NCBI RefSeq assembly: GCF_000428525.1 | Contig: NZ_AUAC01000003.1 | Coordinates: 434,001-498,000 of the forward strand | DNA from: Hellea balneolensis DSM 19091 | GTDB lineage: Bacteria; Pseudomonadota; Alphaproteobacteria; Caulobacterales; Maricaulaceae | DNA length: 64,000 bases | Direction: 5' to 3' | Part shown: piece after piece, positions 26,286 to 37,460 of the stretch | Layout: every line of letters begins with the position of its first letter | Numbering within the stretch: position 1 is the first letter of the stretch | The notes under the pieces: model-generated | What the model was told of the DNA's origin: nothing | The model's input: the letters and a program-made list of their open reading frames with translations, nothing else | The model's database searches: none | Position numbers and translations under genes: made by a program

Positions 26286-28716
<2,431 letters not shown>

Positions 28717-30291: not shown

Positions 30292-30315
30292 CTTAAGCGG
30301 GTTCGCTCGCTTAAG
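30292..30315. repeat. Inverted repeat at the end of the tandem SemiSWEET genes
   Basis: CTTAAGCG and CGCTTAAG flank GGTTCGCT. It overlaps the 3' end of the second SemiSWEET gene and is followed on the plus side by TATTTT. It could be a weak bidirectional terminator between convergent units. Confidence 0.35.
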
Positions 30316-30610
30316 TATTTTCGGGAGCGATGGCCGAGCTTGCGCCCTTTCTCCAAAACCTCTCTCTCACAGCAATCCCGAGAATAGTCGCCGCCAGAGC
30401 GAGAGTTACAGCATTGGCAAGTATAATGGGCATCGCCTTGGACGCGATCCCATAGACAAGCCAAAAGGCGACCCCCAGTGTAAAAAGAGAATACATCATA
30501 AGGCTAATCCCGCCCGTTTGCCGGGTACGGATCACCAGTAAGGCTTGGGGTAAAAATGAGAGCGAGGTTAATATCGCCGCTGCATAACCGAGCCAGACCA
30601 CCGCGCTCAT
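30311..30610 (-). CDS. SemiSWEET (PQ-loop) transporter, second copy
   Basis: 99 residues with three membrane segments. FLPQ follows helix 1, and RTRQTGGISLMMY lies in the loop. Its motif set is very close to the gene at 13517. The start overlaps the upstream SemiSWEET by ATGA, so the two are translated together and may form a heterodimer. The tail after helix 3 is short and basic. A sugar-carrier role is the family function. The actual substrate is unknown. Confidence 0.83.
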   Translation of the reverse strand: MSAVVWLGYAAAILTSLSFLPQALLVIRTRQTGGISLMMYSLFTLGVAFWLVYGIASKAMPIILANAVTLALAATILGIAVRERFWRKGASSAIAPENT

Positions 30611-30903
30611 GCGAAACGCTCCTGTCCCGTGCGGTTCTTTTTAGCCTTATAGCTATTTCTAAATGTTAGGCTGAGGATGATAGATGCCAGGCATAGCGTA
30701 AATGTTTGGGAGAGTATCAAAGGCCAAGACGTCACGAGCACGCCGTAGCTGAGCCACAATATTTTGCCGCTCGTCAACATGCTATACATTAACAGGCTGA
30801 TGCCTGTGGTCACGCCAGTGCGGATGATCATCACGGCTTGGGGAAGGTAAGCCATGGACGTGAGTAGGGCGGCGATAAAGCCAAATAATTCAATCTGTGT
30901 CAT
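30607..30903 (-). CDS. SemiSWEET (PQ-loop) transporter, third copy
   Basis: 98 residues from ATG 30903, chosen for the GGGA just upstream. An ATG at 30912 would add three residues. Three helices, YLPQ after the first, RTGVTTGISLLMY in the loop. It diverges from the other two copies (SGKILWLSYG instead of LGVALWIVYG). Upstream lies about 280 bases without a recognisable gene, holding only short A/T-rich stretches and a GAGA...TCTC hairpin, before the divergent DUF4345-like gene. Confidence 0.78.
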   Translation of the reverse strand: MTQIELFGFIAALLTSMAYLPQAVMIIRTGVTTGISLLMYSMLTSGKILWLSYGVLVTSWPLILSQTFTLCLASIILSLTFRNSYKAKKNRTGQERFA

Positions 30904-31190
30904 ATGTCCCATTTAGCTGAGGCGGAGTTTTCGGGAAGCGCCGTTACACCAATTGACCTATGCAAAAATAAGGGGACTAAAATCATCAAATGATGTGATT
31001 TTGCACGGCTTTGAACAGGATTTGTGCTATTCATAGAATATTAAGAGAGTGAAATTCTCATAATACATGCCTTTTGCTGAAAGAGCGCCATGTGGACTCC
31101 ATACATTGCCGCATGATATGTCTTCACCATCATAACTTGCTTGGGGCGATACCATGCGCCAAACTCCGTACAGAGGCTTAGAGGGAGCAT

Positions 31191-31784: not shown

Positions 31785-32210
31785 ATGCTTTCTCAAATGA
31801 TATACACATCAACTTCGGCCCCACATGTGACCTTAGAGGATAAGGTCAACGTTGCCTCTTACAGTGTGGCGACTTGTGATGAATTAGGCTTAACGGGCCG
31901 TGTTTTGGTTGTGCCGGAAATGGCGATAAATGTTCTTGAAGGTCCAGAGGCTATTGTAAGTGCCTATGTGGCTGCGATCAGAGACGATGCCCTCATTGAC
32001 CTCTTAATTGTGCATAATACAAAGGCCATAGAGGAGCATGAATTTGACGATTATTCCGTCTGGATGACATATAAGCCCGATGAAACTCCAATAAGGGGCG
32101 TTTATCGCCTGACGCCTGACAATTTTGAACAGGCCTTGCCCAAAAATTTACCTCTTAAGACGCGATTATTCATTGAAGCAAACTTTGCCGATCACGGGCT
32201 GGAAGTCTAA
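31785..32210 (+). CDS. BLUF-like protein lacking key flavin contacts, copy 1
   Basis: 141 residues. The fold signature of BLUF blue-light sensors is visible: [10 protein letters not shown] at the start (the Tyr equals AppA Tyr21), GLTGRVL near residue 38, and NVLEGPEAI near 50. Aligned by eye with AppA, the flavin-contact Asn45 is Cys, Gln63 is Asn, and the Trp near 104 is Tyr. Loss of the Asn and Gln argues against normal flavin photochemistry, so it may be a protein-interaction relic. AAGGAG precedes the ATG. Its stop overlaps that of the opposite LLM gene. A paralogue lies at 35380. Confidence 0.6.
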
Positions 32211-33223
32211 GCGACTTTCTGTAAAGCAATTCTGCTCTGCACGCCCATCGTCAGTTCCATGCTCTTCTCTCGCGCCGCCTGATCATAAAACGGCATGGAG
32301 ATGATATATTCATCGGGTTGTAGCTGCTCTTGGAAGCTCGACAGCCGGGTTGCGACTTGGTCGGGGGTGCCGACACAGCTAGCGGCGAGCATACTCTCGA
32401 CATGGGACGCGATTTGCGGCGGCACTTTTAAATCTTCAACGGGGGCGGGGACTAAGCCGCGCTTGTTTGTAACCATACCGACAAAGGATTGGACAAGGCT
32501 CGAGAAGTGAAACCGGGCTTCGGTTTCAGTATCGGCGGCAAAGACGCTACACGCCATCATAAAATAGGGGCGCTCCAGATATTTGGACGGCTTGAAATCG
32601 CGGCGGTAAATATCTGCGGCGTCGAACAAGTGCTGCGGCGCAAAGTGGGAGGCAAAGGCATAAGGTAATCCCAAATGTGCGGCGAGCTGTGCCCCAAAGA
32701 GGGACGAGCCCAAAATCCAGACGGGCACTTCGGTGCCTTCGCCGGGAATAGCGCGGACAGGGAGCGGCGCGTTTTCATCTCGGTTGGCGAGCAGTTGCAT
32801 TAGCTCCACGACATCTTGCGGGAATTGATTGGCTGAGAGGGTACTGTCTTTCCTAAGCGCTCGAATAACATTGCGGTCGCCGCCTGGTGCGCGGCCCAAT
32901 CCAAGGTCGATACGGTCCGGGTGCAGCGTGGCGAGTGTGCCAAATTGCTCGGCAATAGTTAGGGGTGAATGATTGGGCAGCATAATGCCGCCAGCGCCGA
33001 GGCGGATGCTCGATGTCTGCGCCGCGATATGCGCAATCAGGACAGAGGTCGCGGAGCTAGCGACGCTCGCCATATTATGGTGCTCGGCATACCAGACGCG
33101 GTTATAGCCGAGGCGTTCTGCGGACCTCGCCGTGCTCACGCAATCTTTAAAGCTTTGTGCAATATTGCTGCCTTCGGTAACGCGGGCAAGATCTAGGATA
33201 GAAAAGGGAATGCTCATATCCAT
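32207..33223 (-). CDS. LLM class flavin-dependent oxidoreductase (MsnO8 family)
   Basis: 338 residues. Luciferase-like monooxygenase pattern: [17 protein letters not shown] near residue 43, [12 protein letters not shown] near 76, [11 protein letters not shown] near 105 and PVWILGSS near 165. These are typical of the MsnO8/LLM subgroup that uses reduced FMN. The substrate is unknown. An ATG six bases downstream of the first is also possible as start. It faces the secreted hypothetical at 33347 and converges on the BLUF-like gene with overlapping stop codons. Confidence 0.88.
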
Positions 33224-33346
33224 AAGATGCTATGCGGCGCGGCTAAAATCAATGTTCATATATGAATACAGTCCAAAAGCGGATTTCAGGCCATGTTCAG
33301 CTCTATGGCGCTAGGAGCAGTCCGTAAGTCTATTGGAAACAATGAA

Positions 33347-33874
33347 ATGAAAATGCGACCCCTATGCGCGGCGGTGCTCGGCGTGATGATGTTTTCGGAC
33401 AGTGCATTTGCGCTGAGCTGTATGCGTCCTGATTTGGTCAAGACCTTGGAAGAGGCCAAAACCAGTGAAAAGCTCTATTATATTTTGGTTGGGAAATTTG
33501 TCCCGCTCAACCCTCCGGCTAAGACCGAGTTTAATGGTGGATATGTATCGCCGGAAGATCAGTTCAAACCCAAGCCCCCTGTGATCACGCAAAGCTATTT
33601 TCAAGGCTATTCCTTGGCACAGGATCCGCGCCGGGATAGCCATCTAACGCGCTTTCCTGTGGATATAGAGACGAGCTGTGTTGGGCCGTGGTGTTCGGGC
33701 GTGCCGTCAGGGGATCGGGAGATCATTGCTTTTGTTGAGGCGCGTGACGGACAACCCTCACTGCTAAAAATATCGCCATGCCCTTATTGGACCTTTGGCG
33801 CAGAGCCTGAAAGCGTTAAAAAATTGCGCGTTTGCCTTGGTAAGACCTGTGAGTCTGAAGCGCCTGACTGGTAA
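33347..33874 (+). CDS. Secreted Cys-containing hypothetical protein
   Basis: 175 residues from ATG 33347 (GGAAA 7 bases upstream). The open frame extends to 33293 but without a signal-like start. A signal peptide ends near FALSC. The mature part has about eight Cys (SCMRP, SCVGPWCSG, SPCPYW, RVCLGKTCES), consistent with disulfides in the periplasm. No family is recognised. It is followed after 54 bases by a MAPEG gene. Confidence 0.6.
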   Translation: MKMRPLCAAVLGVMMFSDSAFALSCMRPDLVKTLEEAKTSEKLYYILVGKFVPLNPPAKTEFNGGYVSPEDQFKPKPPVITQSYFQGYSLAQDPRRDSHLTRFPVDIETSCVGPWCSGVPSGDREIIAFVEARDGQPSLLKISPCPYWTFGAEPESVKKLRVCLGKTCESEAPDW

Positions 33875-33928
33875 GCTCTTGCTAATTCCTTTTTATTTGC
33901 CCAAAATCAAATAAAAGGGGATTAAACG

Positions 33929-34345
33929 ATGTCACATTTTCTAACGCCGGCGCTCGCGCTGATCATATGGACGCTTATCATGATGATGGTTATGTATAAG
34001 CGGCGCATTCCGGCTATGGCGGCGATTTCGAAACGCACACAGGATTTTATCGACGATCCGGCTTTGGGTAATAAACTGCCGGCCTCAGCGCGCTGGGCCG
34101 CAGATAATTTTAACCACTTACATGAAAATCCGACGATATTTTACGCCCTAATGTTCGTGATATTTCTCATGGATAAAGTCACGCCGCTCGCGCTCTATTG
34201 CGCTTGGGCTTATGTCGCTATTCGGATCGTGCATTCCCTTGTGCAGATCACCACGAATAATGTGTTGGTGCGTTTTGGCTTATTTGTGCTGAGCGCGCTT
34301 ATGCTTATTATTATGGCGCTCAGCATGGCGGCGCGGCTTATATAG
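33929..34345 (+). CDS. MAPEG family membrane protein
   Basis: 138 residues with four membrane helices. The signature ADNFNHLHENPTIFYAL near residue 57 and RIVHSLVQITTNN near 92 match MAPEG proteins (membrane-associated eicosanoid/glutathione metabolism). Bacterial members have no settled role. Ribosome site AGGGGAT precedes the ATG. It converges with the lipoprotein gene, overlapping by 8 bases. Confidence 0.85.
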   Translation: MSHFLTPALALIIWTLIMMMVMYKRRIPAMAAISKRTQDFIDDPALGNKLPASARWAADNFNHLHENPTIFYALMFVIFLMDKVTPLALYCAWAYVAIRIVHSLVQITTNNVLVRFGLFVLSALMLIIMALSMAARLI

Positions 34346-34886
34346 ACTCGCTTTGCGCTGCAAGATAATCGGTTTTAAAGGTGTCGCAGCTATCTCTTGG
34401 GGCCGGCGTGTCCATGCCTGAAACAATGCGCCAATTCCCGCTATTATCTTTCGCCATGGAAAGCTGGTTCACGCCGCAGCCGACAATCTTGCCGTCAAAG
34501 GATATGACAAAGGGTGCCCAGACGGTTGCGAGCTTTCTATATTCCTCGGCGCGTAATCCAAATATCTCTTCATAGGCTTGCCCTGTCTCTAGGGTGCCAA
34601 CCCAATCCCGCCAGCGCTCAAGGCCATCTGGCTCGACGCTGCCATCTGCTTTGACCCGGCTGAGTCGTCCATGCTCATGGAATATACGATCCACCATGTC
34701 CGTGTCGCCGCGATACATGGCTATCATCATGGCATAGGCCGTGCCTTGGGGCGTTGAGAGATCTATAGTCGCGCTGGCATATTCAATTGGGGTGTTATCC
34801 TTCGCGGCGGACTGTATGTCCTTGTTGGAACATGCAGCCGTAAGCGATAATATGAAACATGTTGCGAAAACTTTGCGTATAGTCAT
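34338..34886 (-). CDS. Lipoprotein with NTF2/SnoaL-like domain
   Basis: 182 residues. Lipobox LTAAC near residue 19. The body starts with a helix STPQGTAYAMMIAMYRGDTDMVD, then short strands WAPFVISFDGKIVGCGVNQLSM and NWRIVSGM, the helix-then-sheet layout of NTF2-like (SnoaL/DUF4440) folds. No catalytic residues can be assigned. A stalled or binding role at the inner face of the outer membrane is possible. Confidence 0.55.
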   Translation of the reverse strand: MTIRKVFATCFILSLTAACSNKDIQSAAKDNTPIEYASATIDLSTPQGTAYAMMIAMYRGDTDMVDRIFHEHGRLSRVKADGSVEPDGLERWRDWVGTLETGQAYEEIFGLRAEEYRKLATVWAPFVISFDGKIVGCGVNQLSMAKDNSGNWRIVSGMDTPAPRDSCDTFKTDYLAAQSESI

Positions 34887-34966
34887 GGTTTGGCCTGTTA
34901 ATCTCTATTAGTTTGCGCCTTAATCATCGCTGTTCTATCCACGGGGTCAAGTCTTGTGGAGGTTTC

Positions 34967-35269
34967 ATGTCTGTATTCGTTTTGGCCCAATTTCAAATTC
35001 ATGACCCTTCGGGTTATGCAAAATATGTCGAGATCGCGACGCCGATATTTATGCGCGAAGGGGTTAAGGTTTTAGCCAATGATGAAGCGCCGCAACCGAT
35101 TACGCCTGGGCAGAAGACCGATAAGGTTGTCTTGCTCGAATTTCGGGATCACGACCATTATAAACATTTTTTTACGCAGCCGGATTACATAGAGGCCGCC
35201 AAGCACCGCGACGCGGCATCCACGATTACAGCCATGCAATTTAAACGGTTTGAAGGCTTTCCGGGTTAA
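34967..35269 (+). CDS. DUF1330-like small protein
   Basis: 100 residues from ATG 34967 (GGAGG upstream). The ferredoxin-like pattern LAQFQIHDPSGYAKYVE, LLEFRDHDHYKHFF and PDYIEAAKHRDAAS is that of DUF1330/dimeric alpha-beta-barrel proteins. Function unknown. It lies between a divergent lipoprotein gene and the second BLUF-like gene. Confidence 0.75.
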   Translation: MSVFVLAQFQIHDPSGYAKYVEIATPIFMREGVKVLANDEAPQPITPGQKTDKVVLLEFRDHDHYKHFFTQPDYIEAAKHRDAASTITAMQFKRFEGFPG

Positions 35270-35379
35270 ACCGCCTGACATTGTTTACATTTCGTAAAGG
35301 CTAAATCTAAACGCTGTTACAACGAAACGGGTGTATTCTGCGTTAACGTTTATACGGGTCGCAACACAGATAACTTTTA

Positions 35380-35814
35380 ATGCCTTTATCACAATTAATA
35401 TATACCTCTACCTGCACGGCAGAGCTGACGCCTAAGCTGTCTCATGAGATGTCCTATCAAAGCATACAAGTCTGCCAGCAATTAGGTCTGACAGGACGTG
35501 TTTTTGCAAATGATATTACAGCCTTCGCAATGACCGAGGGGCCGACGGAGCTGGTAAAAAAATACTATCATGCTGTTTCAGTGGATCCCTTGGTTGAAAC
35601 TATTTTACTACATGTTGATCGGCCTATTCCAAAACGAGAATTCTCTGACTATCGCGTTCTTCTAAATTCCAAAGAGCGCTATGATTACGGCCCGGCTATT
35701 GGTGTCTTAACACCTGAAACATTAGAGCAAGCCTTGCCCTCTCATCCGTCCTCACGCCTGCGGATTATGGTTGAGGCTTTTAAAGAGGACGTTTTGGGAG
35801 TCGAAGCTATTTAG
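35380..35814 (+). CDS. BLUF-like protein lacking key flavin contacts, copy 2
   Basis: 144 residues, a paralogue of the gene at 31785: QLIYTSTCTAELT, QLGLTGRVF and MTEGPTEL align throughout. The BLUF Tyr is kept, but the position of AppA Asn45 is Cys (QVCQQLGLTG), Gln63 is Ala (AFAMTEG) and the Trp region is SDYRV. The flavin pocket is therefore even more degraded than in copy 1. Both copies keep a Cys in the same place. Role unknown. Upstream is a 110-base gap with no clear ribosome site. Confidence 0.58.
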   Translation: MPLSQLIYTSTCTAELTPKLSHEMSYQSIQVCQQLGLTGRVFANDITAFAMTEGPTELVKKYYHAVSVDPLVETILLHVDRPIPKREFSDYRVLLNSKERYDYGPAIGVLTPETLEQALPSHPSSRLRIMVEAFKEDVLGVEAI

Positions 35815-35925: not shown

Positions 35926-37050
35926 ATGGCAAAACCGCATCTTATACCCTTTAAGCATATCAAACCCCGTCTTGAGAAAGGACGCGGCGCGCGCAGTAAT
36001 GAGAGCGGACGTTATGAGACAGACCGCCGCGAGCGATTTGAGGATGGCTGGGGCAGCTTGGCTGACTCGGATAAAAAGGGACGCCGCACGACCGTTACGA
36101 TAGAGCGGCCCAAAACCATTATCAATCGAGTCAACTCTCCCTATGTGGGTTTTGACCGTTCCATCAATCCTTACCGGGGATGCGAGCATGGCTGCATTTA
36201 TTGTTTTGCAAGGCCCACACATGCTTATCATGGTTTGTCTCCGGGACTGGATTTCGAAACCCGCCTTTTTGCTAAACCTGACGCGCCGCAAATGCTGGTC
36301 AAAGAGTTGTCCAATCCCCGCTACAAGGTAAAGTCTATTGCCATCGGCACAAATATGGATGCTTATCAACCGATAGAGAAAGAATTGCGGATTATTCGCG
36401 GTGTATTGCGGGTGTTATCTGATTTTAATCACCCTGTATCGCTTTTGACAAAGTCCAACCTTATTATTCGGGACATTGATATTTTGGCGCCTATGGCAGA
36501 GCGCAATTTATGTCGGGCTATGATATCCATAACCACTCAGGACAGGGCGTTGGCGCGGGCGATGGAGCCGCGTTGCCCGACGCCAGAGCGCCGCTTCGAA
36601 GCCCTGGAAAAGCTCGCCCAAGCGGGTATTCGTACGGGGATTATGTTGGGCCCGATGATACCCGGCCTTAATGACAGCGAGATGGAAAGCATTATGAGGC
36701 GCGCCGCTGATCTGGGGGCCAGCTATTCAGCTTATACCATTTTGCGGTTGCCTCAGGAGGTCTCGCCGCTATTCCAAGAATGGCTGCAGGCTTTTACGCC
36801 AAACCGCGCAAGCCGAATTATGAAACATATTCGGTCTATGAATGGTGGGCGGGATTATGATCCGGCCTGGTCCAGAGGCGGCGAAATCCGCACGCCCTTT
36901 GCACAGCTTATCGCAAAACGTTACCGCTTTGCTCAGACCCGTTACGGGCTGATTCAAGGCGAGAGCAGCGCGCATTCGCGGCATAGTTTGGATTGTAGCC
37001 AGTTCAGAATTCCGACACATATAACGGGGCAGGGCGAGCTCTTTGCGTGA
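35926..37050 (+). CDS. PA0069 family radical SAM protein
   Basis: 374 residues. CxxxCxxC cluster motif CEHGCIYC near residue 87, with NPYRG before it and FARPTHAYHGLSPGLDFE after it, all characteristic of the PA0069/Rv2578c radical SAM family related to SplB. LTKSNLIIRDIDIL and MLGPMIPGLND are also conserved. The reaction is not established for the family. It stands alone, followed by the cspA leader. Confidence 0.92.
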   Translation: MAKPHLIPFKHIKPRLEKGRGARSNESGRYETDRRERFEDGWGSLADSDKKGRRTTVTIERPKTIINRVNSPYVGFDRSINPYRGCEHGCIYCFARPTHAYHGLSPGLDFETRLFAKPDAPQMLVKELSNPRYKVKSIAIGTNMDAYQPIEKELRIIRGVLRVLSDFNHPVSLLTKSNLIIRDIDILAPMAERNLCRAMISITTQDRALARAMEPRCPTPERRFEALEKLAQAGIRTGIMLGPMIPGLNDSEMESIMRRAADLGASYSAYTILRLPQEVSPLFQEWLQAFTPNRASRIMKHIRSMNGGRDYDPAWSRGGEIRTPFAQLIAKRYRFAQTRYGLIQGESSAHSRHSLDCSQFRIPTHITGQGELFA

Positions 37051-37238: not shown

Positions 37239-37460
37239 ATGTCAGACGAAATGAAAACAGGAACAGTTAAGTTCTTCAATACAACAAAAGGCTTCGGCTT
37301 TATCCAACCTGAAGATGGCGGAACGGACGTATTTGTCCACATCTCTGCTGTTCAGCGCTCAGGTCTTGACGGACTTAACGAAGGTGACAAAGTCTCTTTC
37401 GATACCGCCATTGACCAACGCTCAGGCAAAACAGCCGTTGACAACGTCAAAATGGCCTAA
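37239..37460 (+). CDS. cspA: Cold-shock protein
   Basis: 73 residues. Single OB-fold with RNP1 KGFGFIQ and RNP2 VFVHIS, which bind single-stranded nucleic acids. GTVKFFN near the N-terminus and an acidic middle are typical. A 188-base leader without a gene precedes it, as expected for cold-regulated translation. AAAGGAAA is the ribosome site. A strong terminator follows 21 bases after the stop. Confidence 0.95.

Follow-up and report, generated by a model that had tools for sequence, protein, structure and literature searches.

Can a protein keep the fold of a blue-light photoreceptor after replacing the residues that handle its flavin, and what would it then do? The question is raised by a 64,000-nucleotide stretch of the Hellea balneolensis DSM 19091 genome (contig NZ_AUAC01000003.1, positions 434,001 to 498,000, forward strand; hereafter the window), in which two genes, B1 (31785..32210, + strand) and B2 (35380..35814, + strand), are complete open reading frames (ORFs) for BLUF-fold proteins of 141 and 144 amino acids. 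A sequence-only reading of the locus had described them as BLUF-like paralogues that keep the BLUF Tyr, replace the Asn and Gln that contact the flavin and share a Cys at the position of AppA Asn45; it suggested that they may be light-blind adaptors, or else may use a Cys-based or other ligand. Both genes belong to a family, here called group A, of 18 genes in 15 of the 136 genomes of the host's bacterial family, the window genome included. We consider it probable, though well short of certain, that B1 and B2 are ancient paralogues serving as BLUF-fold interaction modules, flavin-free, light-independent and constitutive, that descend from short BLUFs of the PixD kind.

Fold and descent

Both proteins are matched by the Pfam BLUF model PF04940, B1 with 40.5 bits and B2 with 39.3 bits at a cut-off of 25. 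Structure models built from alignments of window and group-A proteins, with no canonical BLUFs among them, were confident (predicted local distance difference test, pLDDT, 92.8 for B2 and 89.4 for B1), and their top PDB matches in Foldseek were all BLUF proteins. In VIA-align, B2 matched BlrP1 at Z 15.0, Slr1694 at Z 14.7 (root-mean-square deviation 1.3 over 99 residues) and AppA (1yrx) at Z 14.6; below the BLUFs, in the range 11-12, came the Prp3 C-terminus (Z about 12), acylphosphatase and tRNA-bound TrhO (Z 11.2), as a shared ferredoxin-like fold would lead one to expect. The group-A profile (alignment A1) found BlrB at 6e-6, its best sequence match in the PDB, and Slr1694 at 1e-5. In the models the core is followed by two C-terminal helices (residues 112-118 and 125-139 in B2, 111-117 and 124-135 in B1), and both proteins have the PixD-type short form seen in PixD/Slr1694 and Tll0078, with about 140 amino acids and two helices after the BLUF core. 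Structure prediction, proposed earlier as a check, thus returned the BLUF fold and bears out the description of BLUF-like paralogues: as modelled, B1 and B2 are BLUF domains by fold and descent. A recent tandem duplication as their origin is ruled out by their 38% identity and saturated synonymous sites.

Residues at the flavin site

Aligned to the canonical BLUFs of related genomes, Tyr7, Thr30, Cys31 and Asn49 of B1 correspond to AppA Tyr21, His44, Asn45 and Gln63, and so do Tyr8, Val31, Cys32 and Ala50 of B2. From sequence and alignment, the codons at the Asn45 and Gln63 positions lie at 31875..31877 and 31929..31931 in B1 and at 35473..35475 and 35527..35529 in B2, all on the + strand. The retained Tyr, the replaced Asn and Gln and the shared Cys of the earlier description all stand, and the change is wider still, as both proteins also lack Trp104, Met106 and the Arg-His pair after the conserved Asp, which we take to be AppA residues 84 and 85. 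The names Asn45, Gln63, Trp104 and Met106 follow the AppA numbering given in a passage of PMC4630285.

How far these replacements characterise the family was read from an alignment of 110 distinct BLUF-like ORFs (111 were found, and one shorter than 90 amino acids was dropped). The sample is not random: its rows are loci from earlier searches, namely the best-scoring BLUFs, the relatives of B1 and B2 and 12 mostly low-scoring picks, some of them from outside the host's family. Groups A, B and C were defined from this alignment before the tree was made and with the residues already known, and the 78 canonical rows are everything outside them, including two with His in place of Gln. At the Asn45 column all 78 canonical rows have Asn and no group-A protein does, Cys standing there in 17 of 18 and Phe in one. 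The Gln63 column holds Gln in 76 of 78 canonical rows and in none of group A (Ala in 15, Asn in two, Thr in one). Arg84 falls from 76 of 78 canonical rows to 1 of 18, and His85 from 70 of 78 to none; Trp104 (72 of 78) is replaced throughout by Tyr (14) or Phe (4), and Met106 (69 of 78) by Val (14) or Ile (4). Other positions have become newly fixed (B1 numbering): Arg39, Tyr61 and Glu86 in all 18 proteins, Phe41 and His77 in 17, and Trp93 in 15. The photochemical Tyr is Tyr in 14 of 18 and Phe in the other four, among them the second-closest relative (genome G016).

A published BLUF search pattern, as set out in section 9 of PMC4844311, demands the Tyr-Gln pair and ends in the Gln. It matches 75 of the 78 canonical rows and neither B1 nor B2; in groups A, B and C together 2 of 32 rows match, away from the Gln63 position.

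Distribution, phylogeny and selection

Relatives of B1 and B2 in group A come from Hellea, Robiginitomaculum, Algimonas arctica, Litorimonas cladophorae and uncultured Caulobacterales/Hyphomonadaceae; B2 shares 35-86% identity with its relatives in 14 other genomes, and the total of 18 genes counts B1 as well as an additional copy in G049 and a distant one in G044. No group-A gene was detected outside the host's family, either among 398 genomes of the order, where strong matches were confined to the family, or among 385 genomes of the class, where the two weak matches from outside were both canonical. A scan with B1 alone found no relative; a genome search and a second scan, this time with alignment A1, brought the family to light. 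Homologues with Gln and Asn intact, named earlier as evidence that would count against the proposal, do exist, but none lies inside group A.

In a quick tree of 135 columns, with the Tyr, Asn and Gln columns removed and many forks unresolved, group A forms one side of a branch with a Shimodaira-Hasegawa-like approximate likelihood ratio test (SH-aLRT) value of 99, and the canonical BLUFs of the sister genomes form a separate clade. On whether the Cys arose separately in groups A and B, a tree in which the two groups were held together was better than the quick search's own (approximately unbiased test, p-AU 0.767), on long branches and the same 135 columns. Between B2 and its 86%-identical relative, pN is 0.10 and pS 0.73 (nonsynonymous and synonymous differences), and in a second relative pair pS is again far above pN; B2 is under purifying selection. 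Since new residues are fixed in group A and B2 is under such selection, the group shows re-specialisation and not decay. The idea that B1 and B2 are pseudogene-like remnants of a lost blue-light pathway, to which the lack of a canonical BLUF in the genome and the erosion of three separate groups within the host's family would lend some colour, is hardly credible for full-length ORFs with such pS values, whose new invariant residues run across 18 genes kept in 15 genomes.

The two other eroded sets differ from group A in detail. In group B (L049, L052, L055, L089 with two tandem copies, L090 and L178; genomes G022, G035, G040, G060, G017 and G037) the Tyr is replaced by Phe or His and Ser23 by Gly, and five of the seven proteins have Cys at Asn45. 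All seven members of group C (L158-L162, L165 and L167, from genomes of genus g12) have Ser at Asn45; their Gln63 position is occupied by Glu, Asp or Leu, and Arg84 and Trp104 are retained. Tandem eroded pairs like B1 and B2 also occur, one of two group-A genes (L132, 15290-16262, in G049) and one of two group-B genes (L235, 7854-8859, in G060), and such pairs could point to heteromers. Among the canonical BLUFs, six with the motif IYTC, that is, Cys for Ser at AppA position 23 (L099, L130, L131, L146, L147 and L148), form a tight clade, and in G044, G059 and G056 they lie near ThiC.

Proposed mechanism and its weighing

It is proposed that the ancestor was a PixD-like short BLUF photoreceptor whose flavin pocket was re-specialised as a unit. 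The polar flavin contacts have given way to small or non-polar residues (Cys, Ala, Val or Ile, Leu), and larger residues that have come in nearby, the invariant Tyr of helix 2 and the Trp at the end of strand 5, may now occupy the space of the flavin, the Cys probably being buried and serving for packing. Held in a single conformation, the protein would be constitutively active, acting by contact as a small interaction module through the surface by which PixD-type proteins bind their partners, and this surface would carry invariant residues of its own, Arg39, Glu86, His77 and Trp93 (B1 numbering). PixD itself forms decamers with PixE, according to a passage of PMC5899715. Compared with PixD/Slr1694, B1 and B2 lack Gln50, Asn32 and the Arg-His pair and have Trp91 and Met93 replaced, and no flavin would be expected in them; likewise the BLUF domains of BlrB, AppA and BlrP1, the last two among the best fold matches, bind flavin and retain Tyr, Asn and Gln, whereas B1 and B2 retain the Tyr alone.

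The loss of the photochemical Gln and of the other flavin contacts is a conserved trait of the family, and the earlier suggestion that the two proteins are light-blind is, on sequence grounds, well supported and the best reading. The adaptor role proposed with it is favoured here too, although not in the form of a partner to a photoactive BLUF: the BLUF model, run against the entire genome (3.2 Mb, 99.8% complete), matched B1 and B2 and no third gene, and with no photoactive BLUF left in the genome the two are not adaptors of such a partner here.

Several points weigh against flavin-free, constitutive modules. The photochemical Tyr and Ser23 are mostly retained in group A (Tyr in 14 of 18, Ser in 16 of 18), although a site wholly given over to a new use could do without them. 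The evidence for purifying selection on the pair comes from B2, B1 having no close orthologue, and no neighbouring gene is constant across the group-A genomes. In canonical BLUFs, as stated in a passage of PMC5899715, Gln and Asn contact the flavin C4=O, and photoactivation is abolished by mutating the Gln and not the Asn, which is dispensable; engineered BLUFs without Gln or Tyr can retain weak light signalling, as described in part of PMC4630285. Because Gln-less or Tyr-less BLUFs can signal weakly and the Asn is dispensable, the missing residues do not prove that the proteins are blind.

These same observations lend themselves to a different account, in which B1 and B2 have kept some binding of flavin, be it weak or in an altered pose, and respond to light or redox state through photoreduction of the flavin, with no need of the Gln switch. 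A precedent of sorts is offered by LOV proteins without the photoactive Cys, which likewise keep a blue-light fold without its key photochemical residue and which, according to a passage of PMC4682037, still bind flavin and signal through photoreduction; B1 and B2, unlike them, have lost the flavin contacts themselves. We judge this account unlikely, as the equivalents of Gln63, Asn45, Arg84, His85, Trp104 and Met106 were lost together, the larger Tyr61 and Trp93 were gained and the pocket Tyr has itself become Phe in some members, G016 included.

The shared cysteine

B1 has one Cys in all and B2 two, and only the one at the Asn45 position is common to both. Across the alignment, Cys stands at this column in 22 of 34 BLUF-like ORFs without Gln and in none of the 76 with it; group B contributes 5 of 7, and the canonical rows none of 78. 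Such a pattern, together with the newly conserved His77 and Arg39, would be expected if the Cys and the invariant His and Arg formed a new sensor site in the old flavin pocket, for a redox thiol, a metal or another ligand. This is distinctly unlikely in our judgement: a single Cys is shared by the two proteins, the Cys is replaced by Phe in one group-A protein (a tandem copy of G049), and strand parity suggests that Arg39 and Trp93 point away from the pocket. The N-terminal domain of TrhO (UPF0176_N), which has the same ferredoxin-like fold, has a Cys at the equivalent point of the helix in 16 of 21 sequences, including the host genome's own TrhO, and to our knowledge this domain binds no flavin. 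In view of the TrhO Cys, we read the Cys as the residue preferred in the helix core of this fold when there is no flavin to contact. With the other pocket changes also looking like filling-in, the Cys-based or other ligand suggested for B1 and B2 is not supported.

Genomic neighbourhood and history

The start codons of B1 and B2 are 3,595 bp apart, in agreement with the 3.6 kb first noted, and 3.17 kb of DNA lies between the genes. This interval holds a luciferase-like monooxygenase of the MsnO8 family (32207..33223, - strand; TIGR03558, 404 bits against a cut-off of 167), a conserved secreted-looking protein, a MAPEG protein, a lipoprotein-like gene (- strand) and a DUF1330 protein; the monooxygenase is convergent with B1, their stop codons overlapping by 4 bp (32207-32210). 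The flavin monooxygenase reported between the two genes is accordingly there, but in the company of four other genes, and its presence is weak evidence of a link. In six of the 15 genomes, G016 and G052 among them, no more than 2.2 kb separates it from a group-A gene. In the nine others, where it was sought, a 66-70% match occurs elsewhere in four (G044, G056, G043 and G055), G049 has one of only 52%, and G059, G102, G100 and G057 gave no match at the search threshold. Found nearby in six of 15 and elsewhere in others, the monooxygenase is judged to be gene-order noise, and a functional link with group A was rejected. In G016 an unrelated membrane-protein-like gene occupies the place of B1 beside the monooxygenase.

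Gene order in the window runs from ThiC (26821..28716, + strand; PF01964), a context marker of the ancestral BLUF locus, through B1, B2, a radical SAM protein of the PA0069 family (35926..37050, + strand; NF033668, 455 bits), which is a recurrent neighbour downstream of B2 and serves as context only, and a CspA-type cold-shock protein (37239..37460, + strand; PF00313) to a methyltransferase, a hydrolase and PhzF. The window also has, at 30311-30912 (- strand), a pair of adjoining PQ-loop (SemiSWEET-like) genes that encode 99 and 101 amino acids and overlap at stop and start.

Ten of the 15 genomes encode CspA no more than 3.3 kb from a group-A gene. Among the remaining five, the group-A gene sits at the end of a contig or on a short one in G046, G055 and G052, there is no CspA nearby in G102, and the group-A contig of G057 was not mapped. 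This linkage, with the matches to the Prp3 C-terminus and tRNA-bound TrhO and a match of B1 to UPF0176_N at 5.7e-4 (under the cut-off), might suggest that B1 and B2 bind RNA as ferredoxin-like domains of the TrhO-N or Prp3 kind and act together with the cold-shock protein encoded nearby. TrhO itself acts on tRNA and has a rhodanese domain. We hold the proposal very improbable: both proteins are acidic (isoelectric point 4.5 for B1, 5.3 for B2), the CspA linkage is likewise read as inherited gene order, and canonical BLUFs score at least as high with the TrhO-N profile as group A does, so that the resemblance is a trait of the whole superfamily. Membership of the TrhO family (UPF0176) was rejected as well, B1 reaching 20.7 bits of the 26.2 required and B2 giving no match.

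In the sister genomes, canonical BLUFs near ThiC share the neighbourhood (ThiC, CspA, alpha/beta hydrolase) and a related C-terminal segment with B1 and B2 and, unlike them, retain Tyr, Asn45 and Gln63. G044, G059 and G056 each have ThiC flanked by a canonical BLUF on one side and, on the other, by a group-A gene followed by CspA; G005 has two canonical BLUFs between ThiC and the hydrolase/PhzF pair; in G060 the stretch from ThiC to the hydrolase contains two group-B genes; a group-B gene of G022 is 2.7 kb away from ThiC, and in G035 a group-B gene and ThiC share one 10.5-kb contig. Since canonical, group-A and group-B genes are all found near ThiC in the relatives, the eroded genes occupy an old BLUF neighbourhood, and the window genome has no canonical gene. 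A bolder history can be drawn from this arrangement, in which BLUF genes at the ancestral ThiC-linked locus of these marine bacteria were converted more than once to light-blind forms with the same Asn-to-Cys replacement (groups A and B), the pocket, with its Cys and the newly invariant residues, now being a redox or ligand chemosensor; it would make a chemosensor of a photoreceptor, and we find it improbable.

Implications

Group A, a variant with a narrow distribution within a known fold family, is of modest interest and easily testable. No natural flavin-less or Gln-less BLUF protein was among the papers listed in searches of the open-licence PMC literature, and BLUF-fold proteins without the Gln fall by construction outside a survey based on the Tyr-Gln pattern, such as that described in part of PMC4844311. 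If B1, B2 and their relatives are flavin-free modules, the family would be nature's counterpart of a locked BLUF mutant, and a family without a flavin site would allow the BLUF residues needed for photochemistry to be told apart, in a natural experiment, from those needed for signalling. For the organism itself, a match to the Pfam BLUF model does not amount to a light sensor, and both BLUF matches in the H. balneolensis genome are probably blind.

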